This document shows positions 862-14,641 of a stretch of 35,219 nt of DNA, in pieces. Numbering within the stretch: the stretch's first letter is position 1; each line of letters begins with the position of its first letter. The position numbers and the translations under genes are program-made. The DNA is taken from assembly GCA_903887845.1 (NCBI GenBank), contig CAISRC010000060.1:1-35219 (forward strand), given 5' to 3'. The notes below the pieces were generated by a model. It was not told the DNA's origin. It did no database searches and saw only the letters and a list, made by a program, of their open reading frames with translations. This DNA comes from an uncultured Chlorobiaceae bacterium. Its GTDB lineage: Bacteria > Bacteroidota > Chlorobiia > Chlorobiales > Chlorobiaceae.

Positions 862-2271
862 TTAGACATGCTCAATAGAGGTATGATTGGAAATTTCGGA
901 ATTGGTGGTACATAAATCAGTCTGCGAGAGATGGTGGACATTATCATTGCCGGTCAGGCGAGCAAAGTCTCGAAGCTCTTCGGTGACGGCCTTGAAAAAG
1001 TTGGCGACCCGGAGGGCGGATGTATCGACATCCAGACGGGAACGAAGGGCCGGATCCTGTGTAGCGATGCCGACGGGGCATTTGCCGGTATTGCAGATAC
1101 GGTACTGCTGACAGCCTGCGGCCATCATGGCCGCCGTCCCGACAGCTATGGCATCAGCCCCCATTGCCAGCGCCTTGGCAAAGTCTGAAGAGGTGCGCAG
1201 GCCACCGGTAATAATGAGGGAGACCGTATCAGCCCCTCTCAAATCAAGTATTTTTCTTGCCCTTGCCAACGCGAAAATGGTTGGCACAGACGTAGCGTTT
1301 TTGACAACCTTGGGAGAGGCGCCGGTTCCACCTGCTCGCCCATCGATGGTGATGAAATCAACACCCGCATAGAGAGCGATATCGATATCGTCTTCGATAT
1401 GTCCAGCCGCAAGCTTGATGCCAATCGGTTTTCCACCGGTTTTCAGTCGCAAATCATTGACTGCGGCTTTCAGGTCCTCTTTTGAGCGGATGTCGGGGAA
1501 GTGCGACGGGCTGATAATATCCTCTCCTTCCCGACATCCCCGGATTGCAGCGATTTCACCGGTGACCTTGCTAGCGGGAAGATGCCCTCCCATTCCCGGT
1601 TTTGCGGACTGCCCAATTTTGATTTCCACGGCATCGACCAGCTTCAGGTTCTCGTCGGTCACACTGTATTTGTTGGGAACATATTCGAAAATGTAACGGT
1701 ACGAGGCCGCAAGTGATTCGGGCAGAATTCCCCCTTCACCCGAGCACATGGCTGTTTTAGCCTGCGCGCTGCCTTTAGCAAGAGCGAGCTTTGCTTCCCT
1801 TGACAACGCGCCGAAGGAGATATGGGAGACAAAAACCGGGGTTTCGAGCATGAGTGGGAAGGCTGCTGCGGGACCGATCAGCGTTTGTGTGACAACCGGC
1901 TGTGTTTTGTTGAGCGGCATTTTTGCAAGCTGCGCACCTTTAATAAGGATTTCATCCCAGGAGAAGGTGGGGATGCGGCTCCGCATCGGTTCGATAATCG
2001 ACTTTCCCGTCATGGCAAGGTGGTGAATATCGGCCATGTTGACCTCAAAATCGTCTGTCGGTCGTCGCCATTCCGCCAGATACTCTTCTCCTGAACCTGT
2101 TTCAGCGCCAATCGAGAGAGCTGTCGGCAAGTTGGATGCTGCAAGGCGGAAACTCTCTTTGCTTGAGCCGCAGACAGGGCATATCCATTCATTCGGGAGG
2201 GCTTCCCAGGCGACGGATTCTTTGTTTTCATCGTAGATATATGAACATAGCCCACATTGCCATTTTGACAT
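862..2271 (-). CDS. Rubredoxin / FMN-dependent glutamate-synthase-like fusion protein
   Basis: Residues 1-40 form a rubredoxin domain with the iron ligands C6, C9, C31 and C34 (CGLC and CPVCG). From about residue 80 the protein matches the FMN-binding central domain of glutamate synthase large subunit (Glu_synthase family, TIM barrel), including GEGGILPE near 178-185, a KPGMGGHLP loop and GGTGASP. C387, C393 and C398 (C-x5-C-x4-C) match the 3Fe-4S cluster motif of glutamate synthase. The glutaminase domain and the C-terminal beta-helix of true GltB are absent. The expected activity is an FMN/3Fe-4S oxidoreductase with rubredoxin as built-in electron donor or acceptor. Whether it makes glutamate is unknown. 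It lies 59 bases after parA-like on the same strand and may be cotranscribed. Confidence 0.88.
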   Translation of the reverse strand: MSKWQCGLCSYIYDENKESVAWEALPNEWICPVCGSSKESFRLAASNLPTALSIGAETGSGEEYLAEWRRPTDDFEVNMADIHHLAMTGKSIIEPMRSRIPTFSWDEILIKGAQLAKMPLNKTQPVVTQTLIGPAAAFPLMLETPVFVSHISFGALSREAKLALAKGSAQAKTAMCSGEGGILPESLAASYRYIFEYVPNKYSVTDENLKLVDAVEIKIGQSAKPGMGGHLPASKVTGEIAAIRGCREGEDIISPSHFPDIRSKEDLKAAVNDLRLKTGGKPIGIKLAAGHIEDDIDIALYAGVDFITIDGRAGGTGASPKVVKNATSVPTIFALARARKILDLRGADTVSLIITGGLRTSSDFAKALAMGADAIAVGTAAMMAAGCQQYRICNTGKCPVGIATQDPALRSRLDVDTSALRVANFFKAVTEELRDFARLTGNDNVHHLSQTDLCTTNSEISNHTSIEHV

Positions 2272-2330: not shown

Positions 2331-3119
2331 TTACCTTTTTGCCGCCTGTTGCGCAAGATCCATACTGCCTTGTTCATCAAGCTGCGCGCGAAGCTCCTCC
2401 CAGAGGTTTCGGTAAGCCTTTGATGCTGTGGAATTTGGCTGAACGGCGTTGAGTGGTGCACGGTAGATGCCCATTTTTTCAACCTCTGAACTGTATGGAA
2501 TTGTCTGAGTAAAAAATCCCGGTGTATTTCGGAATTCACGGATGATGTCGCGGTGCAACTTTTTCTGTTTTTCCACCATGGTAAAAAAGGGCCGAATTTT
2601 CGAGCTGTCGAGTTTATTTGCTTCAAAAAAATCCTTTAACTGAATATAGGTACGCATCGACAGTGTCGTTGGAATCAACGGCACAAGAATTACATCAGAA
2701 GCAGTAAACACACTTTCAGACAGCAGTGTCAGATTTGGAGGGCAGTCGAAAAAAACAAGCCGGTAGTCATCGCTCAGTTCTTCAATGTTTTTTTTGAGCT
2801 TTTTTTGAGGTTTTTTTTCCTCAGAGAGTTCAATGTCAAGGTTTCTGTAAGAAAAGTCCGAGGGCAGCAGATCAAGGTTTTCAAAATCTGTAGCCTTTAT
2901 ATTACGGTAGATTTTTTTGTTTCCCTTGAGAAATTTATCGCTGTTATACTTTTTTGAAGCGATAATTCTGAAATAGAAAGAGCTTGCTCCCTGTGGATCA
3001 AGATCGCAGATCAGTGTCGGTGGATAATGCAGAGAGGAGAGATAGGAAAGGTTCACCGCCGCAGCCGTTTTACCAACCCCGCCTTTGATACTGTACAACG
3101 CGATTGTTTTCATGGTCAT
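2331..3119 (-). CDS. ParA/MinD-family P-loop ATPase
   Basis: The protein carries the deviant Walker A motif KGGVGKT at residues 12-18, whose first lysine marks the ParA/MinD/Mrp class, then [10 protein letters not shown] at about 39-48 (Walker A') and VFFDCPP (Walker B). At 262 aa it has the size of stand-alone ParA or orphan cargo-positioning ATPases, without the N-terminal helix-turn-helix of P1-type ParA. The family forms ATP-dependent dimers on DNA and moves plasmids, chromosomes or protein cargos such as carboxysomes and chemoreceptor arrays. No ParB gene is adjacent. Its ATG overlaps the stop of the upstream CHAD gene (ATGA, four bases), which argues for translational coupling. A second ATG two codons downstream could also serve as the start. 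Confidence 0.88.
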
Positions 3120-4681
3120 GTGCTCGTTAAAAGGTCATTAAACAGATGGCTGGTTTCTTCATTATCAAATGATTTGAAGGTTTTATTGAACTTGAGACGA
3201 GCCTCTTCCTGTTTTTGAAAAAGAATTGCCATAAGGCCGCCCGTTGATGCCGCAAGTAACTTGTCTGCGGGCATCAATTCGAGTTGTTCATGCAGAAAAC
3301 GAAGTTGAACGGCAAAATCGACAAAGTCACCAAGATTTTCCTGGAGTTCCTTCAATTGCATGATAACAGGAATAATGGTTTTATGGGGAAATATAGATGC
3401 GAAAAATTCAAGCAGATATCGGAGTTTCTTGCAGTCGATACGTAATCGATGAAGTTCCGCATCGGTTGTTTCCTGGCTGATGAGACGACCATGGCGGATT
3501 ACTTTCTTCAATGCTTTTTTTATGGTTTCAACGGCAACATTCATGGTGGAAAGGGATGCGTTCGGGGCCAGCTCAGTCTCTGGAAGAGATGGCCGATTGA
3601 TAAACGCATCCCACTTGTCAAGAAACGAGAGGTAGTCGTCTGACGCAATATAATTGCAGAATTGTTTGTGCTTTGTCTTGCGTGATAAGGCAATGTCGCT
3701 GAAAAAGAGCTTAAGAGACGGACGGAGCAAAGGGGGCAAATAGTGAAAATAAGTTGTTTGTCGAAGAAGATAGACATCACTGTCACGCAGCTCGTTGGTT
3801 CGTCTGCCGAGATCCCTGAAAAAGTTAAGATAATATGCAATTTCACTGGTGTCAAACACACCTTTAAGCTGCTTGAGAATCGAACGGGTACGGCGTATGG
3901 CGACGCGATAGTCATGCAGAAACTCTGAATCAATGTTTTTTTTGATGCCATCTTCATTTTGACGCATCACTGAACAAGTGAATTGCAGGAGCCGCTGGGC
4001 GCTCTCGTGAACAGGTGCATTCGGATTAAGAGTGAGCCGAATTTTTGAGGAGTAGTCCTGAACGTTATGTCCAGCGGCTTTCATGATCAACCCAAAGAAT
4101 TCCCTTAAATCAAGCCTGTTGCAGGCCTCGTCATTATCCAGTAATGATGTTTCAATCGGTGTCATCTCTTTTTCATATCCCTTGAGCGGCGAAAGAGAAA
4201 CGATATGCAGGAAGGGATTCGGTTTCTCTCTATTGGCAAGCGATAATGATTTCGCAGTCAGAATGGCAAGAGTTTTTTCGTTATCGTCAAGAATCTGGTA
4301 TGAACGAATGGAGACATTAATGGAGCAAAGTCTAATGAAGGCCCTGATATTGCTGCATGAACAAAGTTTTTCTTTCAGTTTACCGGCGGATAGAGCATCG
4401 GAGAAAAAAGAGACAGGGTTCCGGGTAAATGGTACGGAGGTGATTTCATGGCCTGTATTGAGGTCGGCAAGAGAGAGAACTCTCTTTGTTTTAATAATCA
4501 CAACTCCTCTGCTGAAAGCTTGCCATTCAAAAGTATCATAGAAGTCCTGTCGTTCTTTCGTTAAGGAAAGCGTTTTAAGTTTCCATCCGAAGGGAAGAAA
4601 AGGAAGAATTTTTTTTGGCAACGACTCCAGCAAGTCAGCACGATTCAGCCTGAAATATATTGTTTTCGGGGTGTCGTGCAT
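3116..4681 (-). CDS. CHAD-domain protein with degenerate CYTH-like N-terminus
   Basis: Residues ~222-515 form a CHAD domain, an all-helical bundle with conserved basic and histidine residues. The two hallmark helices are visible: [12 protein letters not shown] (H256, R259, R263, R264) and [12 protein letters not shown] (H411, R412, R414, K418, K419, R421). CHAD domains bind inorganic polyphosphate and target proteins to polyphosphate granules. The first ~180 residues are not a normal CYTH triphosphatase: the N-terminal ExExK motif is absent, but FYDT at 47-50 and the following strands recall CYTH, so an inactive CYTH-like domain is plausible (inference). It is four-base coupled to the ParA-like gene, lies 80 bases after the Gph-like gene on the same strand, and sits a few kilobases from pst/phoU, all consistent with a phosphate-storage role. 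Confidence 0.85.
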
Positions 4682-4761: not shown

Positions 4762-5442
4762 TCAGGACATGATCCGCATGTTCGGCAGAGTGAAATATTG
4801 GTCGATAATCTCTTCAGGATGTCGAACCAGAGCTTTTGCGCCAAACTCAAGAAGCTCGCTTTCTGGTCGGAAACCCCAGAGTACACCGAGTGGATACATT
4901 CCCGCTCTCGTTGCAGTCAGCATGTCAATACCACTGTCTCCGACATAGAGAATGGATGAAGGTTCTTCTCCAAGCATGCGTGCGACAAGTAAGGCTCCTT
5001 CAGGGTCAGGTTTGTGGGCAATGCCGCTGTGATGGCCCAGAACAACATCAAACGTCCACTCCTTCAGCAGAAATTCTGCACAGAGACGGGTGAAGTGATC
5101 AGCTTTGTTCGAAAGTATAGCTATTTTTATTTTTTGTTGTGCGAGCGTGTCGAGCATGGCGCCGATTCCTGGATAGGGGCGTGAGTTTTTGTTCCAGTTG
5201 TCAGCATAGTGTGCCATAAATTCCGGCAAAAGAAAATCAATAGTCTCTGGAGTACCCACTCCTTCAGGAAGTGCTTTTCTGACCAGCTCTCTCATTCCGT
5301 GTCCGACAAGAAAACGGCACTCATCAATGGTATGCACCGGATAATCGTGCCGGGAAAGAACTGTATTGAGGGTATTGACAAGATCCTGGAGAGTATCAAG
5401 AAGCGTTCCATCCAGATCGAAGATAACAGCATTGCAGGTCAT
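4762..5442 (-). CDS. gph: HAD-family hydrolase, phosphoglycolate phosphatase-like
   Basis: This is a 226-aa HAD phosphatase. Motif I is FDLDGTLLDT with nucleophile D9 and acid/base D11, motif II is the Ser of AILSNK, motif III the Lys of HKPDPEGALL, and motif IV GDSGIDMLTA. The cap region between motifs I and II is the helical C1 type seen in Gph/PGP proteins. Gph removes 2-phosphoglycolate, but HAD specificity is hard to assign by sequence and pyrophosphatase or other sugar-phosphate activities (PpaX-like) remain possible. The ATG start places motif I at the usual distance of about six residues. The gene is first in the minus-strand series that continues into CHAD, ParA-like and the rubredoxin fusion. 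Confidence 0.82.
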   Translation of the reverse strand: MTCNAVIFDLDGTLLDTLQDLVNTLNTVLSRHDYPVHTIDECRFLVGHGMRELVRKALPEGVGTPETIDFLLPEFMAHYADNWNKNSRPYPGIGAMLDTLAQQKIKIAILSNKADHFTRLCAEFLLKEWTFDVVLGHHSGIAHKPDPEGALLVARMLGEEPSSILYVGDSGIDMLTATRAGMYPLGVLWGFRPESELLEFGAKALVRHPEEIIDQYFTLPNMRIMS

Positions 5443-5534: not shown

Positions 5535-5558
5535 TCTTTGAACTTCAACGGCAGCAGT

Positions 5559-5783
5559 TTACTTTTTTGGAGCAATTGCTGATGAGATGCTCTGCAATGC
5601 CTGTCCAACAGTGTTTGATGCACTTCCGACAAGATCAATTGCTGTTTTAGCAAGGGGTTCAATAATCTGTACCACTGCTTTGACTCCGCTGCTCAAGAGA
5701 TCAACCTGCTGCTGGGCAAGTTTACCTGCGGTATCAAGAAGGTTGTTGAGCGCGACCGAGAAATCATTTGTTTCGTTTGCCAT
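5559..5783 (-). CDS. csmB: Chlorosome envelope protein, CsmB/CsmF family
   Basis: This is a 74-aa amphipathic protein with an N-terminal Asn/Asp-rich start (MANETNDF), a long run of hydrophobic heptads containing LAQQQVDLLSSGVKAV and IEPLAKTAIDLVG, and a C-terminus ending in QALQSISSAIAPKK. Length, pattern and tail fit the CsmB/CsmF family of the chlorosome envelope in green sulfur bacteria, small proteins in the lipid monolayer that encloses the bacteriochlorophyll aggregates. I cannot separate CsmB from CsmF without alignment. The gene is monocistronic by appearance, with its own terminator, and diverges from pstS across a 232-base AT-rich region. No clear Shine-Dalgarno sequence precedes the ATG. 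This is the best lineage marker in the window. Confidence 0.75.
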   Translation of the reverse strand: MANETNDFSVALNNLLDTAGKLAQQQVDLLSSGVKAVVQIIEPLAKTAIDLVGSASNTVGQALQSISSAIAPKK

Positions 5784-6015: not shown

Positions 6016-6828
6016 ATGATAAATAAACTTCTGCAGCTTGTTTTTCTTCTTGCTTTTTCCGTCACAGGCACTGCCGATGCTGCCGTGAAGACTATTGTGT
6101 TGGACGGTTCAACCACTGTTGGTCCTGTTGCGAAATCTTTCGCAACCTATTTCACTAAAAAATATGGTATTCGTGTCACGGTGAGTGAGTCGGGAAGTGG
6201 TAATGGTGCTAAAAGCCTGATTAACGGTTCATGCACGATTGCGGCAATGTCGCGTGCCATGAAAGATGCAGAGATTGCGGCGGCCAGGAAAAAAGGAGTT
6301 AATCCTGTTGCGCATGTTATTGCCCTTGACGGTCTTGCCATGGTTGTCCATCCTGCCAACCCTGTTCGTTCACTTTCAAAAGCTCAAATCAGCAGTATTT
6401 ACCACGGTACCATCACCAACTGGAAAGATGTTGGAGGAGCCAATGCCCGTATTGTGGTTATTCAGCGAGAATCCAACAGTGGAACTCAGGATTCCTTTAA
6501 AGAACTGGTTACCGGCAAGAGTATGCAGATCACAGGAGGTGCTGAAACCCAATCGAGTAACGGCGCAGTAAAAACCAGAGTAAGTACAACTCCTTCCGCT
6601 ATCGGTTTTCTTGGCTTGGGGTTTGTTGATAGTTCTGTAAAGCTGATTGCTGTAAATGGAGTATTGCCAAGTGTTAAGACGGTAAAAAACGGCTCCTATT
6701 CGGTATCAAGGCCTCTTTATCTTTATACCAACGGCCAGCCATCGGGGCCTGTAAAACAATTTATCGATTTACCGAACACTGTTGAAGGCAAAGCAATAAT
6801 AAGTGAACTTGGTTTTGTTAACCGCTAA
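6016..6828 (+). CDS. pstS: Phosphate ABC transporter, periplasmic substrate-binding protein PstS
   Basis: A 270-aa exported protein. Residues 1-22 form a signal peptide ending near TADA. The mature N-terminus has LDGSTTVGPVAKSF, the phosphate-binding start of PstS-type type II periplasmic binding proteins, followed by SESGSGNGAKSL, with MSRAMKDAE and ALDGLAMVVHP further on and the RESNSGTQDSFKE loop that contributes phosphate ligands. The protein captures phosphate outside the inner membrane and hands it to PstCA. It is the first gene of the pst cluster but is separated from pstC by 207 bases that include a strong terminator. This arrangement usually gives more PstS than membrane subunits. 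Confidence 0.93.
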   Translation: MINKLLQLVFLLAFSVTGTADAAVKTIVLDGSTTVGPVAKSFATYFTKKYGIRVTVSESGSGNGAKSLINGSCTIAAMSRAMKDAEIAAARKKGVNPVAHVIALDGLAMVVHPANPVRSLSKAQISSIYHGTITNWKDVGGANARIVVIQRESNSGTQDSFKELVTGKSMQITGGAETQSSNGAVKTRVSTTPSAIGFLGLGFVDSSVKLIAVNGVLPSVKTVKNGSYSVSRPLYLYTNGQPSGPVKQFIDLPNTVEGKAIISELGFVNR

Positions 6829-6858
6829 GGTTTTTCCTGTACAGATGCTCTTATTTAC

Positions 6859-6895
6859 AAAACCGGTTGATCACTGAACCGGTTTTTGTTTTTTC
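6859..6895 (+). terminator. Rho-independent terminator after pstS
   Basis: A perfect ten-base-pair stem (AAAACCGGTT / AACCGGTTTT) with an eight-base loop is followed by a T-rich tract. It lies 30 bases after the pstS stop. Its A/T flanks make it potentially bidirectional. It probably attenuates read-through from pstS into pstCAB. Confidence 0.88.
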
Positions 6896-6908
6896 TCTTT
6901 TATACAAA

Positions 6909-6926
6909 TGTTTCATACTTGTAACA
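6909..6926 (+). promoter_or_regulatory. Candidate Pho-box-like direct repeat before pstC
   Basis: Two seven-base half-sites, TGTTTCA and TGTAACA, are separated by four bases (tact), giving an 11-base period. This spacing and the TGTnACA core resemble PhoB-type Pho boxes. It sits downstream of the pstS terminator and about 110 bases before the pstC start, a sensible place for a second phosphate-regulated promoter. The match is by eye only; no PhoB/PhoR gene is in the window and no comparable pair was obvious upstream of pstS. Confidence 0.3.
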
Positions 6927-7035
6927 TAACCGGTGTTGGTTTCTATCCTGAAAGCCCATAGATTAGCATCATCAAAATTGAGTCACAGTGATGCTGCGGC
7001 TAACTGGTAATTGATCAAAGAAATCATTCAAGACT

Positions 7036-8199
7036 ATGGCTGATGAGAGTGTAGGGGAGCGTAACCGTTCGAATGCCTTTGTGGTAACCGCTCGCAAACG
7101 CACCTTGCAGAAGGTTGCAAAAACAGCCGGAGAAGGGATGCTCTTTTCGGTAGCCTTTTTTGTGGCCGTGATTGTCCTTTTTATTTTCTATTTCGTGGCA
7201 CGCGATGCCATTCCTTTTTTTCAGATCTGCGGATTCAGCGAATTTTTTACCAGCACAAACTGGTATCCTGCCGATGAGCCCGGTGAGTTTGGTGCGCTTG
7301 CCATTATCTACGGAAGTTTGATGGTGACACTCGGTTCCGCCATGATTGCTGTCCCGATGGGGGTTGCCGCCGCAATATGCCTGAGTGATATCCTCCCGTT
7401 TTCGATTCGACAGTACGCCAAACCGGTCATTGAAATGCTTGCCGCAATTCCATCGGTAGCATTCGGTTTTTTTGCCCTCGTTGTTCTGGCTCCGCTTATG
7501 CAGGATCATGGAGGACCCATGCTGATGTGGGGCTGGTGGATTCTCGTCTCACCCTTTCTGCTTCTTTCCGTTATTGTTATTGCTGATCTCTTGACTGCGA
7601 ACATCAAGGATGAAAAGCGTCGTCAGCAACGTCACTGGATGTTGTTGATTGCTCTTGGCCTTTTCTCGATTTTTCTTTTGTTCAAGGTTGGTTCTGTGCT
7701 GAATGGCATACAGATTCTGACCGGTACCAACGCACTGAATGTTTCTATTATACTGAGTTTTATGGCACTGCCGACTATTGTCAGTGTTTCCGAAGATGCC
7801 CTTCAGGCTGTCGGTCGCGACATTCGTGAGGGCAGTTATGCGCTTGGAGCCACAAGAGCTGAAACGATTATTAAAACTATTCTGCCTGCAGCAAGCAGCG
7901 GCATTCTTGCGGCGGTTATTCTCGGTATTATGCGAGCTCTCGGTGAAACGATGGTGGTCTGGATGGCTTCGGGCAACTCCTCTCATATTCCCGAGCCATG
8001 GTTCAACTACCTCGAAGCAATCCGTACCCTGACGGCTACCATCGCCGGTGATATGGGTGAAGCCGACCAGGTGACCGGATCTGCCCGTTTTCATGTGCTC
8101 TTTGCCATGGGTTTGCTGCTCCTGATTATCAGTTTTATCAGCAATCTTGTCAGTGAGAGAATTGTCGTTCGCCAGCGTAAAATTCTGTCCGGGCAGTAA
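7036..8199 (+). CDS. pstC: Phosphate ABC transporter permease PstC
   Basis: A 387-aa inner-membrane permease, longer than the ~320-aa E. coli protein. An N-terminal cytoplasmic tail of ~35 residues is followed by a first membrane helix and at least five more. The BPD_transp_1 coupling (EAA) loop reads EGSYALGATRAETIIKTILPAA at about 265-286. The extra length lies partly in the tail and partly in an expanded middle region (about 155-235) with a basic, glutamine-rich KRRQQRH segment between helices. It pairs with PstA to form the phosphate channel. pstA follows after 24 bases, so the two are clearly cotranscribed. The ATG start was kept because it gives the basic tail typical of this subunit. 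Confidence 0.93.
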   Translation: MADESVGERNRSNAFVVTARKRTLQKVAKTAGEGMLFSVAFFVAVIVLFIFYFVARDAIPFFQICGFSEFFTSTNWYPADEPGEFGALAIIYGSLMVTLGSAMIAVPMGVAAAICLSDILPFSIRQYAKPVIEMLAAIPSVAFGFFALVVLAPLMQDHGGPMLMWGWWILVSPFLLLSVIVIADLLTANIKDEKRRQQRHWMLLIALGLFSIFLLFKVGSVLNGIQILTGTNALNVSIILSFMALPTIVSVSEDALQAVGRDIREGSYALGATRAETIIKTILPAASSGILAAVILGIMRALGETMVVWMASGNSSHIPEPWFNYLEAIRTLTATIAGDMGEADQVTGSARFHVLFAMGLLLLIISFISNLVSERIVVRQRKILSGQ

Positions 8200-8223
8200 T
8201 ATTTTCCCATAAAACACTTTGTT

Positions 8224-9570
8224 ATGAATATCGGAACCAGAAAGATACTTGATCGTTCGTTTACCGCTGTTGGCATCGGCTCCATCGTTGTTATGGCTTT
8301 GGCCCTGATGATTGTTGTGGTGCCGATAGTTTACAATGGTATTGGCGCAGTATTTTTTACCGGTACAGTTGAACATCGCAAGATGTTACATGCTGAATTC
8401 AAAAGGGGCGACAGTCAGGAGCTTTCGAGTGAGGTTGCTTCTTCAAATCGATACCGGGCTAAAATATACGATATGCTCACTGGTTTCGAGGCGGAACTTG
8501 AAACGATGACACCCGAAAAAAAGGCAGAATATCAGGCTAAATATTCTCAGGTGCGGACGGCCTTGCAGGCCCTGCTTGGTCCCCTCCCGGGTGATCCTGA
8601 ACCGATGCTGACAAGGTTCAAATACGGTCAGACCAGGTGGGATAAAGCTGAAGAAAAGTTGCATGACCTGCTCTTTGAGTCAAAGTGGGATAATTCCAAT
8701 CCCAATGTGATGAGCAAGGAGTACTTTGTAAGCCGTGCTATTGGCTTTGAGGGCACCTCTCTTGTCAGGCTCTTTCCTTATGTCAAGGATAATTTTGAGA
8801 ACATGCTCCTCCCCGAGTTTACCTTCTATTGGGGATTTATCACCGACAGCTCTGTTGATTCACACTTTTTCGGGGGAATCTGGCCTGAAATACAGGGCAC
8901 CTTTTTTCTTGCCATCGGTGCGATGCTGTTTGCTTTTCCTCTCGGTGTTATTGCTGCGGTTTATTTTACAGAATATGCGAAACCGGGTTTTTTAAACAGT
9001 ATGCTGCGCAGTGCCAACAGCACTCTTGCTGGTGTGCCGAGTATTGTTTTTGGTATGTTCGGCCTTGCTTTTTTTATCAATACCATGAAAGTTTCTGAAT
9101 CAAAAAGTGTGATTGCCGGTGCGCTGACCCTGGCTATTATGATTCTTCCGACTATTATCCGTGCAGCCGAAGAGGCGATTCTTGCGGTTCCTAAAACGTA
9201 CAGAGAGGCATCGCTCAGCCTTGGTTCCACCAAATGGAATACTATCGCGACCGTTATTCTTCCTGCCGCGCTTCCCGGTATCCTGACAGGAGGAGTTATA
9301 AGCCTCGGCAGGGCAGCAGGCGAAACTGCTCCAATTATCTTCACAGCGGCGGTCAGTGTCGGTTCAGCTATAGGTCTTGCTGATGTTTTTTCCTCTCCGA
9401 CACCAGCTCTTTCATGGAACATTTATAATCTTGCCAGCGAACATGAAGCGGCCACTCAACTTCGCCATGTTCAATATGGTATGGTGCTTGCTCTTGTCAC
9501 GATTGTGCTCTTGCTGAATTTGTCAGCAATTGTTCTGCGGGCTCGTATTTCCAAAAAATTAAAATGCTAA
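8224..9570 (+). CDS. pstA: Phosphate ABC transporter permease PstA with large inserted domain
   Basis: The C-terminal ~225 residues are a standard PstA permease, with the EAA loop YREASLSLGSTKWNTIATVI at about 325-344 and GRAAGETAPIIFT following. The N-terminus has one membrane helix at ~17-42. Between them, at about 45-220, is a hydrophilic, strongly charged helical segment (including LETMTPEKKAEYQAKYSQVR) absent from the ~296-aa E. coli protein, giving 448 aa in total. By topology the insert would be periplasmic if the first helix runs in-to-out. Its role is unknown; contact with PstS is one guess. pstB starts seven bases after the stop. Confidence 0.92.
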   Translation: MNIGTRKILDRSFTAVGIGSIVVMALALMIVVVPIVYNGIGAVFFTGTVEHRKMLHAEFKRGDSQELSSEVASSNRYRAKIYDMLTGFEAELETMTPEKKAEYQAKYSQVRTALQALLGPLPGDPEPMLTRFKYGQTRWDKAEEKLHDLLFESKWDNSNPNVMSKEYFVSRAIGFEGTSLVRLFPYVKDNFENMLLPEFTFYWGFITDSSVDSHFFGGIWPEIQGTFFLAIGAMLFAFPLGVIAAVYFTEYAKPGFLNSMLRSANSTLAGVPSIVFGMFGLAFFINTMKVSESKSVIAGALTLAIMILPTIIRAAEEAILAVPKTYREASLSLGSTKWNTIATVILPAALPGILTGGVISLGRAAGETAPIIFTAAVSVGSAIGLADVFSSPTPALSWNIYNLASEHEAATQLRHVQYGMVLALVTIVLLLNLSAIVLRARISKKLKC

Positions 9571-9576
9571 CAATCA

Positions 9577-10437
9577 ATGCTCATGACAACTGATATGAGA
9601 AAAACGTCAGAGAGTGTGCCAGTACAGAAATCAACACGTGAGATCTATCTGCCACCTCAACGCAGCTCAATAACCGGAGGAGGAACCGCTCATATCGCTG
9701 CCAAGGAATTTTCCATATACTATGGTGAATTCGAAGCTGTAAAGAAGGTTAGTGTCGATATTCTTTCAAAATATGTAACCGCTATTATTGGTCCGAGCGG
9801 CTGTGGCAAGAGTACTTTTTTACGCGCAATAAATCGAATGAATGATCTTATTCCAAGCTGTCACACCACCGGCGCCCTGCTATTTGACGGTGAGGATATC
9901 TATGGAAAATTCACCGATGAAGTGCTGCTTCGCAAAAAAGTTGGCATGGTCTTTCAGAAACCAAACCCTTTTCCAAAATCCATTTTTGATAATATTGCCT
10001 ACGGGCCCCGTCTGCATGGGGTGAACGACAAAAAAAAACTGATGGAAATTGTCGAACACAGCCTTAGAAAAGCTGCAATATGGGATGAAGTCTGTGACCG
10101 TCTTGACAAAAATGCTCTTGGACTGAGTGGTGGTCAGCAGCAGCGGCTCTGTGTCGCCCGGACCCTTGCTGTTGAGCCAGAGGTGCTTCTGCTCGACGAG
10201 CCTACCTCCGCTCTTGACCCCAAAGCTACAGCAAAAATTGAAGATCTTATTCAGGATTTAAGGGGAAGTTATACTATCATGATTGTTACGCACAATATGC
10301 AGCAGGCCTCACGGGTTTCAGACGCCACCTTGTTTTTCTATGAAGGGGTTCTGGTTGAACATGCGCCGACTGCGCAGCTTTTCACCAATCCGAAAGACTC
10401 GATAACAGAAGATTATATTACCGGAAGATTCAGCTAA
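9577..10437 (+). CDS. pstB: Phosphate ABC transporter ATP-binding protein PstB
   Basis: A 286-aa ABC ATPase with Walker [10 protein letters not shown] at 72-80, the PstB-specific INRMNDLIP segment, signature LSGGQQQR at 183-190, and Walker B VLLLDEP at 204-210 followed by [23 protein letters not shown] is also characteristic of PstB. It energises phosphate import through PstCA. The first ~35 residues are a non-conserved extension; an alternative ATG at residue 7 exists, but the first ATG is closest to the pstA stop. phoU follows after 18 bases. Confidence 0.95.
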
Positions 10438-10455
10438 TAAAACCACAGTAATTAT

Positions 10456-11142
10456 ATGTCGTCACGTCCGGTTCATCTACTTATACAAGAACTTTCACAG
10501 GTTCTTGTTCGACTTTCAGAGACAGTTGTTGAAAATTTGTTTAATGCCCTTAATGCGGTGAAACATCAGGATGAGCAAGGCGCCCGTCAGATCAGGTTTA
10601 TCGATCATGAAATTGATGTGGCTGAGGTCAATCTTGAAGAGCGCTGTCTGGCATTTCTTGCTCTTCAGCAACCGGTAGCAAGGGATCTGCGAACAATTGT
10701 CACTATTATCAAGATCAATGATGACTTGGAGCGTATTGGCGATTTGGTGGTTCATATTATCGATCGTATGCCGGATATTAGTTCAGAGATCCTCGACTTA
10801 TTTGCCTTTGAGGATATGGGAAAGCATGCCGCAAATATGGTTACAAAGTCGATTGAGGCATTCATCTCAAAAGACCGTATGCTCGCCGATCAGGTTTGTG
10901 CTCTTGATGAAGAGATAGACGTGATGCATCGTTCGGTCTTTAAAACAGTGACCACTTTAATGAAAAGTCCGGATTCGGATGTTGAAAAACTCATAGCTGC
11001 CTTGAGCATCTCAAGATATCTCGAACGTATGGCTGATCATGCGTCAAGAATTGCCCATGAAGTCATTTTTCTCGTGACGGGTGAAATTGTCCGTCATAAT
11101 GGAGGTTTTTATGAAAAGCTCATTCAATCGCTAAAAGAGTGA
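10456..11142 (+). CDS. phoU: Phosphate signalling protein PhoU (first copy)
   Basis: A 228-aa protein with two PhoU three-helix repeats. The metal-binding signature occurs in each half: DDLERIGDLVVHI near residue 93 and YLERMADHASRIAHEV near 192. HPVARDLR-like QQPVARDLRTIV precedes the first. PhoU restrains the PhoR/PhoB pathway and Pst transport when phosphate is plentiful and affects polyphosphate levels. It is the last gene of the pstCAB-phoU operon. The second copy 1.7 kb downstream is very similar in order of motifs and length, beginning with the same RPxHLxIQELSQVLV pattern, so the two look like a duplication. Confidence 0.93.
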   Translation: MSSRPVHLLIQELSQVLVRLSETVVENLFNALNAVKHQDEQGARQIRFIDHEIDVAEVNLEERCLAFLALQQPVARDLRTIVTIIKINDDLERIGDLVVHIIDRMPDISSEILDLFAFEDMGKHAANMVTKSIEAFISKDRMLADQVCALDEEIDVMHRSVFKTVTTLMKSPDSDVEKLIAALSISRYLERMADHASRIAHEVIFLVTGEIVRHNGGFYEKLIQSLKE

Positions 11143-12284: not shown

Positions 12285-12830
12285 TTGTCATTTATTCCAT
12301 CAAAAATATTTTTCACCAAAGGGGTGGGAAGGCATAGGGAATATTTATCGTCGTTCCAGCTTGCGTTGAGGGATGCTAAAATTGAGAAATGTAACCTGGT
12401 TACAGTATCCAGTATTTTTCCGCCTCACTGTGTTCGCATCAGTGATGATGAGGGTTTGAAGCATCTCACTCCAGGGCAAATCACCTTTGCAGTCATAGCT
12501 CTCAATTCTACCAATGAATATAATCGTCTTATTGTTGCTTCGGTTGGCGTTGCCATCCCGGCGGATGAGACACAGTATGGTTATTTGTCGGAACATCAGC
12601 CTTACGGAGAATCTGCCGAACAGTCGGGAGAGTATGCTGAAGATCTCGCTGCAACAATGCTTGCAACAACCCTCGGTATTGAGTTTGATCCCAACAAAGA
12701 CTGGGACGAGCGTGAAGGTATCTACAAGATGAGCCACAAAATTATTAATTCCTACAATATCACCCAATCTGCAGAGGGTGAAAACGGACTCTGGACAACG
12801 GTCATTTCGTGCGCTATTCTTTTGCCTTGA
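12285..12830 (+). CDS. pdaD: Pyruvoyl-dependent arginine decarboxylase
   Basis: A 181-aa proenzyme that converts arginine to agmatine, the entry to putrescine and spermidine synthesis. The self-cleavage site is visible as VSSIFPP, with cleavage expected between S42 and S43 to give a small beta chain and a pyruvoyl-capped alpha chain. Further family features are [19 protein letters not shown] at the N-terminus and the [20 protein letters not shown] segment. The start is TTG, supported by GGAGA eight to twelve bases upstream. The family is common in archaea, chlamydiae and green sulfur bacteria. It sits between two phoU copies; the second phoU starts 43 bases after its stop and may be cotranscribed. 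Confidence 0.9.
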
Positions 12831-12873: not shown

Positions 12874-13542
12874 ATGCAAAATCGACCGATTCATTTGCAA
12901 ATACAAGAGCTTTCGCAGGTTCTTGTTGACCTTTCTTCCAGAGTAGTTGAGAATTTGTCAGACGCATTATATGCGGTTAAATACCAGGATGAGGATAGCG
13001 TGCCGCGTATTAAAGATGTGGAAAATGAGCTAGAAATTGAGGAGATTGATATTGAGGAGCGATGCATTCAGTTTATCGCACTTCAGCATCCGGTTGCAAA
13101 GGACCTGCGCACTATTCTTGCTGTCATGATGATGAGTGATGAACTTGAGCGTATTGGTGAAATATCGCTTCATATCATTGATTCTATGCTTGCAATAACC
13201 CCAGCCATGCTGGAGTTGCTGGAGTTTGAGCTGATGTTTTCACTGGCAAATGATATGGTTAAAAAATCGGTTGATGCTTTTGTTTTACAGGATCGTAATC
13301 TTGCTGATCAGGTTTGTGCTCAAGATGAAAAAGTTGATGCAATGCATCATACGGCCGTTAACAAAGTGACTGCTTTAATAAAAACTGCAGATGCTGATGT
13401 GAACCAGCTTATCAATGCGTTAAGCGTTTCGAGGAATATTGAGCGTCTAGCTGACCATGCATCAAAGATTGCGGAAGAGGTTATTTATCTTGTGACTGGT
13501 GAACTTTTCAAACACAAGAGTTCCAATGATGATTTCATATAA
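12874..13542 (+). CDS. phoU: PhoU-like protein (second copy)
   Basis: A 222-aa protein with the same two-repeat PhoU plan as the copy at 10.5 kb. Signature segments are DELERIGEISLHI and NIERLADHASKIAEEV, and QHPVAKDLRTIL precedes the first. The N-terminus shares the RPIHLQIQELSQVLV start with the first copy. The second Asp of the first signature (ERIGD) is changed to Glu (ERIGE), which keeps the charge. The gene is not adjacent to pst genes but 43 bases behind the arginine decarboxylase. It may act on the same Pho pathway or have diverged to another transporter or to polyphosphate control (inference). Confidence 0.9.
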   Translation: MQNRPIHLQIQELSQVLVDLSSRVVENLSDALYAVKYQDEDSVPRIKDVENELEIEEIDIEERCIQFIALQHPVAKDLRTILAVMMMSDELERIGEISLHIIDSMLAITPAMLELLEFELMFSLANDMVKKSVDAFVLQDRNLADQVCAQDEKVDAMHHTAVNKVTALIKTADADVNQLINALSVSRNIERLADHASKIAEEVIYLVTGELFKHKSSNDDFI

Positions 13543-13636
13543 ACGTAGCCATAGTGAACAATCATCAGTAAGTTAACTTGCATTTATTTTTTTATTGTTA
13601 GTAATATATAGGTTTAAATTATCTGAGGAGGTAATA

Positions 13637-14641
13637 ATGACTAAACCAGTTCAGGCAGTAACCTTTACAGATGTCATGGATATTGTTGATGGAACGGTTG
13701 ATATTGATTGTTCCAATAAGGGCTTGACATCGCTTGAGGGTTGTCCGGAGAAAGTTAAAGGATATTTCAATTGTTCAGGGAACAAACTCACAACCCTTGA
13801 AGGGGCTCCTAAAAAGATTAAAGGGGATTTCAATTGTTCGTGCAATCTGCTGACAACCCTTGAAGGAGGCCCGGAGGAAGTTAACGGTGATTATGACTGT
13901 TCATGCAATGAACTGATAACTCTGGAGTATTGTCCGGTTTTTGTGACTGGTGATTTTTCTTGCGCTGGAAACCTTCTGATATCGCTTCAAGGAGAGATCT
14001 ATTCAAGTAAAGGTATCAAGCAAGCAAGGTGTCTGGAAATAGTTGAGGGAGATTTCAATTGTTCCGGAAACCAGTTGCAAACCCTTGAGGGTTCGCCAGA
14101 TATTGTGGGTGGAGATTATGATTGTTCTAATAATCAATTGACCTCTCTTGAAAAGTGTGCGGTTGTTATTACCGGAGATTATTCGTGTTCAGGAAACCAA
14201 CTTATTTCACTTGATGGCGCTCCTCGATATATTGAGGGTAACTTTGATTGCTCAAAGAATAAACTTACCAACCTTAAGGGAAACCTGGAAATGGTTAACG
14301 GTGATTTAAATTGTTCATTTAACGAGTTGACCTCGCTCAAAGGTGCTCCTGAAAAAGTCAAGGCTTTTGATTGTTCAAATAATCAGCTTACATCTCTCAA
14401 AGGTGCTCCTGAAAAAGTTAAGGGGGATTTTGACTGCTCAAGGAATCAGATAACGTCTCTGAAGGGGGCACCAAAAAAAGTAAAAGGACATTTTAATTGC
14501 TCCGGTAATCAACTGACAACCCTGGATTGTGGGCTGAAGAAAGTTGGTGGAGATTTTATCTGTGCAGATAATGCCATGTCTTTTACGGAAGAACAAGTTC
14601 GATCGGCTTGCAAGATAAAAGGAATCTTTTTAGCGGAATAA
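13637..14641 (+). CDS. Cysteine-rich LRR-like solenoid protein, 21-residue repeats
   Basis: A 334-aa protein made almost entirely of about 13-14 tandem repeats of 21 residues with the pattern GDFxCSxNxLTSLEGAPxxVx. Leu, Phe/Tyr and Val positions recur as in leucine-rich repeat solenoids, and the NxLTSL core is LRR-like. Nearly every repeat has a Cys at the same place (DCS/NCS), giving a line of cysteines along the structure. One repeat, near residue 110-140, is expanded by about 12 residues. There is no signal peptide or membrane anchor, so it should be cytoplasmic. The start was chosen at the ATG preceded by a strong GAGGAGGT Shine-Dalgarno sequence, rather than an in-frame TTG/ATG further upstream. 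Such proteins usually bind other proteins; the partner is unknown. It lies between two PhoU-like genes. Confidence 0.85.
   Translation: MTKPVQAVTFTDVMDIVDGTVDIDCSNKGLTSLEGCPEKVKGYFNCSGNKLTTLEGAPKKIKGDFNCSCNLLTTLEGGPEEVNGDYDCSCNELITLEYCPVFVTGDFSCAGNLLISLQGEIYSSKGIKQARCLEIVEGDFNCSGNQLQTLEGSPDIVGGDYDCSNNQLTSLEKCAVVITGDYSCSGNQLISLDGAPRYIEGNFDCSKNKLTNLKGNLEMVNGDLNCSFNELTSLKGAPEKVKAFDCSNNQLTSLKGAPEKVKGDFDCSRNQITSLKGAPKKVKGHFNCSGNQLTTLDCGLKKVGGDFICADNAMSFTEEQVRSACKIKGIFLAE

Follow-up and report, generated by a model that had tools for sequence, protein, structure and literature searches.

An orphan ParA-type ATPase gene coupled to a CHAD gene in Chlorobiaceae and other bacteria: a candidate module for positioning polyphosphate granules

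Why should a ParA-type ATPase be encoded in overlap with a CHAD protein, away from any ParB and close to genes of phosphate uptake? The window analysed here, a stretch of 35,219 nucleotides, is contig C60 of the 2.65-Mb genome of a member of the Chlorobiaceae (a green sulfur bacterium). A sequence-only reading of the window had proposed that the CHAD protein is the adaptor through which the ATPase distributes polyphosphate granules in the cell; it called for a survey of the adjacency of the two genes and conceded that a pairing limited to this genome would count against it. The features around the pair are as follows.

862..2271, minus strand: rubredoxin/glutamate-synthase-domain gene, downstream of ParA (Pfam Glu_synthase, 4.9e-103)
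2331..3119, minus strand: gene of the orphan ParA-type ATPase, 262 aa (Pfam AAA_31/ParA PF13614, 1.6e-31)
3116..3119, minus strand: ATGA stop/start overlap of the CHAD and ParA genes, read from the sequence
3116..4681, minus strand: gene of the CHAD protein, 521 aa (Pfam CHAD PF05235, 2.4e-51, residues 235-463)
4762..5442, minus strand: HAD-family phosphatase gene, directly upstream of CHAD (Pfam HAD_2, 5.5e-35)
5558..5783, minus strand: small orf of 74 aa, chlorosome CsmB-like by eye only, from its translation
6016..11142, plus strand: pstSCAB-phoU phosphate-uptake cluster, divergent from CHAD-ParA (Pfam)

The gene pair and its two proteins

At the junction of the two genes (CACATGACCATGAAA), the CHAD stop codon TGA shares letters with the first ATG of ParA, so that the ATGA overlap described from the sequence alone is present at that ATG; the orthologues of ParA mostly start at a second ATG (MKTIALYS), which in this genome would leave a gap of 2 nt after CHAD. 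Equally, there is no ParB gene beside ParA, as that reading had stated: the sole convincing ParB of the genome (126.7 bits) is on contig C48, adjoining a canonical Soj. The surroundings of the pair are less constant. The order HAD-CHAD-ParA is also present in a subset of Chlorobium genomes, and the rubredoxin/glutamate-synthase-domain gene is not conserved, being the downstream neighbour in only two of the 54 CHAD-ParA loci found among the best 80 loci of the scan described below. The 74-aa orf has no Pfam match; a CsmB-like small orf, recognized by eye, is located upstream in 11 of the same 54 Chlorobiaceae loci, and as it is kept only in some Chlorobium loci it is not a core part of the module. 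The PADLOC models of anti-phage defence gave no match.

The CHAD protein consists of an N-terminal CYTH/triphosphate-tunnel fold (about residues 1-200) followed by the CHAD domain (about residues 210-521). The CHAD protein of C. tepidum, of which the CHAD domain was crystallized with polyphosphate (6QV7/6QVA) and the contact residues were mutated (PMC6537752), is a close homologue (E about 1e-106). When the mutated residues were placed on the present protein by sequence offset, all six (H256, R259, R263, R299, R421 and Y422) were found to be invariant in 21 of 21 diverse members. Judging from the solved homologue and these residues, it is all but demonstrated that the CHAD domain binds polyphosphate, which bears out the earlier supposition that the protein targets polyphosphate. 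Other CHAD proteins localize to polyphosphate granules in vivo, according to the accounts given in PMC9239181 and PMC10892726, which cite Tumlirsch and Jendrossek; what CHAD proteins do besides binding polyphosphate is described as unknown in PMC10892726.

Pfam recognizes no family in the N-terminal half, and the CYTH profile finds no match in any of the 21 members. The motif ExExK at the N-terminus is the mark of CYTH/TTM proteins; it was not found in the alignment of the CHAD protein. The AlphaFold model (pLDDT 90) was matched by Foldseek to 6qv7/6qva, to full-length YgiF (5a60), to TTM/ThTPase structures and to AtTTM3. Because a confident model matches YgiF and the triphosphate-tunnel enzymes, the N-terminal 200 residues or so are, as modelled, a degenerate CYTH domain. 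The protein thus resembles the CHAD phosins of C. tepidum (6QV7/6QVA) and E. coli (YgiF) in its invariant polyphosphate-contact residues and, by fold, in its CYTH-CHAD architecture, but it differs from them in that the CYTH part is too divergent for Pfam and the CHAD gene is coupled to ParA. A conserved basic N-terminal peptide of the kind with which ParB and McdB activate their ParA partners was looked for in the CHAD alignment and none was found.

The ATPase has the deviant Walker A motif KGGVGKTA with its signature lysine, the Walker A' aspartate and the Walker B aspartate, all of them invariant (K12, K17, T18, D41 and D125 in an alignment of 20 subfamily members). Its nearest PDB sequences are ParA/Soj and McdA, and its predicted structure (pLDDT 85) is best matched by Soj/ParA with a TM score of about 0.75, with McdA also among the fold matches and BcsQ, MinD, FlhG and FleN in range; BcsQ is among its family matches as well. 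This genome and most related ones also encode a canonical ParA, which shares about 30% identity with the CHAD-linked one. Full-length CHAD-linked members from Chlorobiaceae and other phyla score 360-426 bits on a profile of the CHAD-linked ParA and canonical ParA proteins score at most 124, and in a tree of 37 ParA proteins, 22 of the 23 CHAD-linked members fall into one group (support 90/89). On these sequence grounds the CHAD-linked ParA proteins are a distinct subfamily, sharply apart from canonical ParA. ParA is the better conserved of the two proteins, at 70-88% identity compared with 43-69% for the partner CHAD protein, and is therefore under constraint.

Like the partition protein ParA/Soj, the ATPase combines a deviant Walker A motif with a Soj fold; unlike it, the ATPase has no ParB and a distant profile score. 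The arginines that contact DNA in B. subtilis Soj are not in place in the CHAD-linked ParA, as judged by aligning it to the Soj of the same genome, so that binding to the nucleoid is a supposition; other basic residues (K186, H189 and R220) are conserved. Most proteins of the subfamily stop a few residues past the last conserved motif, and their tails are variable.

Recurrence of the pair

Within the genus, this genome and 40 relatives were checked. Both a ParA orthologue (68-88% identical) and a CHAD gene occur in 24 of 25 same-genus genomes, this one included; the exception (G004, 85% complete) has neither. CHAD adjoins ParA in all of the ParA-bearing genomes of the genus except two (G005 and G016).

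For a wider view, one genome per species was scanned with patterns made from this CHAD subfamily, so that the result does not speak for CHAD proteins at large, and the best 80 loci were kept. Among these, a ParA gene of the same strand directly follows CHAD in 54 of the 64 Chlorobiota loci and in 15 of 16 loci labelled as other phyla, the sixteenth (Caldithrix) ending with its contig. The other labels are KSB1, Dadabacteria, Deltaproteobacteria, Desulfobacterales, Desulfurivibrionaceae, Thermodesulfobacteriota, Gemmatimonadota, Calditrichaceae, Chloroflexi, Lentisphaerae and Deferribacteres, given as they stand on records that are mostly metagenome bins, some of which may be labelled wrongly. 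The genes overlap by exactly 4 bp at the conserved ParA start in 35 of 66 measurable junctions, and most of the others are at most 18 bp apart. Locus L131 contains masked bases and the ParA of L136 has an in-frame stop; the ParA orthologue of L050 (G019:C13) is split into two overlapping frames, either by an assembly frameshift or by a real lesion. Two long open frames (517 and 589 aa; G259 and G120) looked like fusions of ParA with CHAD, a reading rejected because the two profiles match separate, overlapping frames.

An independent draw from the ParA side covered 58 genomes in the vicinity of a Deltaproteobacteria MAG; 16 of them have the subfamily, with CHAD adjoining in all 16, and in the Chlorobiaceae 25 of 30 ParA loci adjoin CHAD; the Chlorobiaceae sets of the separate searches overlap and their counts are not additive. 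ParA was also compared against 72,556 plasmids. Identity to the best plasmid relatives does not exceed 45%, and two of the top Paracoccus matches, in Paracoccus aestuarii and P. marcusii, are the same CHAD-ParA pair, followed by CYTH and NUDIX genes; in P. aestuarii the order is the same and the ATGA overlap is present. The ParA proteins of the Paracoccus pairs score about 320 bits on the CHAD-linked profile. The adjacency of CHAD and ParA, which recurs in many genomes and phyla, is not due to chance. The survey that the sequence-only reading had called for thus finds the pair conserved in Chlorobiaceae, in many other labelled phyla and in Paracoccus, and not limited to this genome.

Phosphate genes and the role of the ATPase

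The nearby pst/phoU cluster had been offered as a link to phosphate, and the link is stronger than was claimed, for the polyphosphate kinase gene ppk1 is itself often adjacent. Among the 54 Chlorobiaceae pair loci of the best-80 set, Ppk1 or Pst/PhoU genes are found within about 6 kb in 32, Ppk1 within about 6 kb in 17 (and in seven of the 16 other-phylum loci), and Pst/PhoU genes in 21. In L076 and L091, pstCAB-phoU-LRR-CHAD-ParA are all on one strand, and C. thiosulfatiphilum DSM 249 (L104) has Ppk1-LRR-CHAD-ParA. The functional link of the pair to polyphosphate is strong. There is also a second CHAD lineage, encoded in a PhoU-LRR-CHAD-Ppk1 cluster without ParA (L057, L058, L059, L083-L086, L101 and L113); four of its CHAD copies group together in the tree with moderate support (67/79), and two genomes (G008 and G020) hold both kinds of CHAD.

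Two further genes of these neighbourhoods may be mentioned. In 22 of the 54 Chlorobiaceae pair loci, a gene situated between CHAD and either PhoU or Ppk1 encodes a member of a family of leucine-rich-repeat-like (LRR) proteins, none of which reaches the cut-off of any Pfam family; examples are at 13595-14641 of the window and in L034, L037, L068, L097 and L104. A gene for pyruvoyl-dependent arginine decarboxylase (12285-12830) directly precedes the second PhoU gene of the window (12874-13542). In other Chlorobiaceae the decarboxylase gene is also found next to Ppk1, which hints at a connection between polyamines and polyphosphate.

The CHAD-ParA pair probably constitutes an ATP-driven module for positioning or partition of polyphosphate granules, with CHAD as the cargo adaptor. 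We infer that the two proteins bind each other, that ParA has a matrix to work on and that the granules move. The CHAD protein would coat or decorate the granule, gripping polyphosphate by the CHAD pore and basic faces as shown in vitro for the C. tepidum homologue, and ATP-bound ParA dimers would occupy a matrix extending through the cell, most probably the nucleoid. Granule-bound CHAD would trigger ATP hydrolysis and the release of ParA, and the granules would track the resulting ParA gradient, stay apart and pass to both daughters. The overlap of the genes, evident from the sequence, may hold motor and adaptor in ratio. With somewhat less confidence, we lean towards the broader proposition that a widespread, unrecognized subfamily of ParA serves in many phyla as a dedicated partition motor for polyphosphate granules, with a folded pseudo-CYTH-CHAD protein as its adaptor.

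Positioning is favoured because the coupling of CHAD and ParA is conserved across phyla and involves a sharply distinct ParA subfamily, because the pair is linked to Ppk1, Pst and PhoU and its polyphosphate-contact residues are invariant, because a separate canonical Soj-ParB exists and the nearest structures of the orphan ParA include Soj and McdA, and because genomes of the genus hold both genes or (G004) neither. It is weakened by the missing Soj-type arginines of ParA and by the lack, in the CHAD protein, of a basic peptide that would activate ParA. The closest parallel is the McdAB system that positions carboxysomes in Synechococcus and its relatives, in which an orphan ParA-type ATPase is likewise encoded beside a cargo-binding partner without ParB; there, however, the cargo is the carboxysome and the adaptor is McdB, whereas here the proposed cargo is the polyphosphate granule and the adaptor a folded CYTH-CHAD protein. 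A conserved, adjacent, cargo-binding partner is the mark of cargo-positioning ParA proteins, and CHAD is such a neighbour, its polyphosphate binding being taken from the homologue.

The chief alternative, which we regard as unlikely, is that the ATPase serves polyphosphate synthesis as a regulator or assembly partner, controlling with CHAD the activity of Ppk1, the nucleation of granules or the turnover of polyphosphate, by analogy with the ParA-like BcsQ that supports cellulose synthase. The presence of BcsQ among the family and fold matches, the frequent sharing of the cluster with Ppk1, PhoU, Pst or NUDIX genes and the possibility that the triphosphate-tunnel fold of the CHAD protein senses polyphosphate ends would all suit such a partner, but Ppk1 is near only some of the loci whereas CHAD adjoins nearly always, and the PhoU-LRR-CHAD-Ppk1 lineage indicates that a synthesis-linked CHAD needs no adjacent ParA. 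It is distinctly improbable that the ATPase acts like MinD and sends granules to the membrane or pole rather than across the nucleoid: MinD, FlhG and FleN are within the range of its fold and the Soj-type arginines are not conserved, but sequence and fold are nearer to ParA/Soj than to MinD, and in most of the proteins the tails after the last motif are too short and variable to contain a conserved membrane-targeting helix.

The survey of phyla and of the 72,556 plasmids largely refutes a plasmid or chromosome partition ParA, or the remnant of one, placed beside CHAD by accident. The ParA fold and the habit of annotation pipelines of calling ParA a chromosome segregation protein would lead one to this idea, yet the same neighbour appears at near-zero spacing in many phyla, the best plasmid relatives are distant and are located beside CHAD or unrelated genes, and the genome keeps its Soj-ParB pair elsewhere with no ParB nearby; we give it very little credence. 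Least probable of all is a role in positioning chlorosomes or other phototrophic structures of green sulfur bacteria, since the CsmB-like orf that suggests it accompanies the pair in only 11 of the 54 Chlorobiaceae loci and no such gene was seen beside the pairs of Paracoccus or of loci labelled KSB1, Dadabacteria and Deltaproteobacteria.

Granule positioning by the pair also has to be set against published work. In Acidithiobacillus, a conserved folD-ppk-parA-CHAD cluster has been described and discussed for cAMP signalling and copper resistance, with ParA as a partition protein and no positioning role (PMC6416229, PMC10892726); its likeness to the present pair, parA with CHAD and ppk, is one of published gene order alone. 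In Pseudomonas aeruginosa, polyphosphate granules are spaced by AlgP, a histone H1-like DNA-binding protein (PMC9239181), a finding that weakens the case for a positioning ATPase; AlgP likewise ties granule spacing to the nucleoid but is a DNA-binding tether and not an ATPase. A 2025 review names AlgP as the polyphosphate spacing protein and treats granule positioning as open and its dependence on ATP as unknown (PMC13052382). Green sulfur bacteria contain up to three polyphosphate granules per cell (PMC11269200). No proposal of ParA-driven polyphosphate positioning was found in the open-licence literature, and priority elsewhere is possible. With a two-gene candidate machine in several phyla, the positioning of polyphosphate granules becomes directly testable. 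If the proposal is true, the known cargos of ParA ATPases come to include a mineral-like storage granule, bacteria of many phyla spend ATP on the active spacing and inheritance of their phosphate stores, and CHAD proteins have a role beyond binding polyphosphate.

ParA and CHAD apart from each other

Five of the 30 Chlorobiaceae ParA loci are without an adjoining CHAD gene (G005, G016, G230, G234 and G303), and in each of these genomes CHAD is found elsewhere. In G005 and G016, only the Ppk1-linked CHAD copy is left and ParA, still more than 80% identical, stands alone; these two genomes are cases of co-occurrence without linkage. More distant relatives of ParA, scoring 294-318 bits and falling outside the CHAD-linked group of the tree, occur in genomes that we assign, from their gene content, to the Chitinophagaceae. 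CHAD is mostly absent from these genomes or detected as a weak match only, and the related ParA is often near an esterase gene. As these relatives are mostly without CHAD, the wider ParA subfamily is not specific to polyphosphate, and its partners may change from one branch to another. The unlinked Chlorobiaceae ParA proteins and the Chitinophagaceae-type relatives weaken the positioning proposal.

Related ParA proteins at four loci of other Bacteroidota (L193, L195, L196 and L197) are orphans, and a gene for an esterase-like alpha/beta-hydrolase is at or near three of the four; ParA proteins on this esterase side perhaps serve a different cargo. Among the plasmid relatives, those of Marinobacter, Pontibacter and Sphingomonas have no adjoining CHAD; plasmid neighbourhoods were judged on annotated records, leaving aside Halomonas and Novosphingobium, whose records carry no annotation. 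On plasmid pMAQU02 of Marinobacter nauticus VT8 (L200), an orphan ParA with 42% identity is encoded a few genes from phbB, a gene of polyhydroxybutyrate synthesis, and is possibly a counterpart acting on polyhydroxybutyrate granules.
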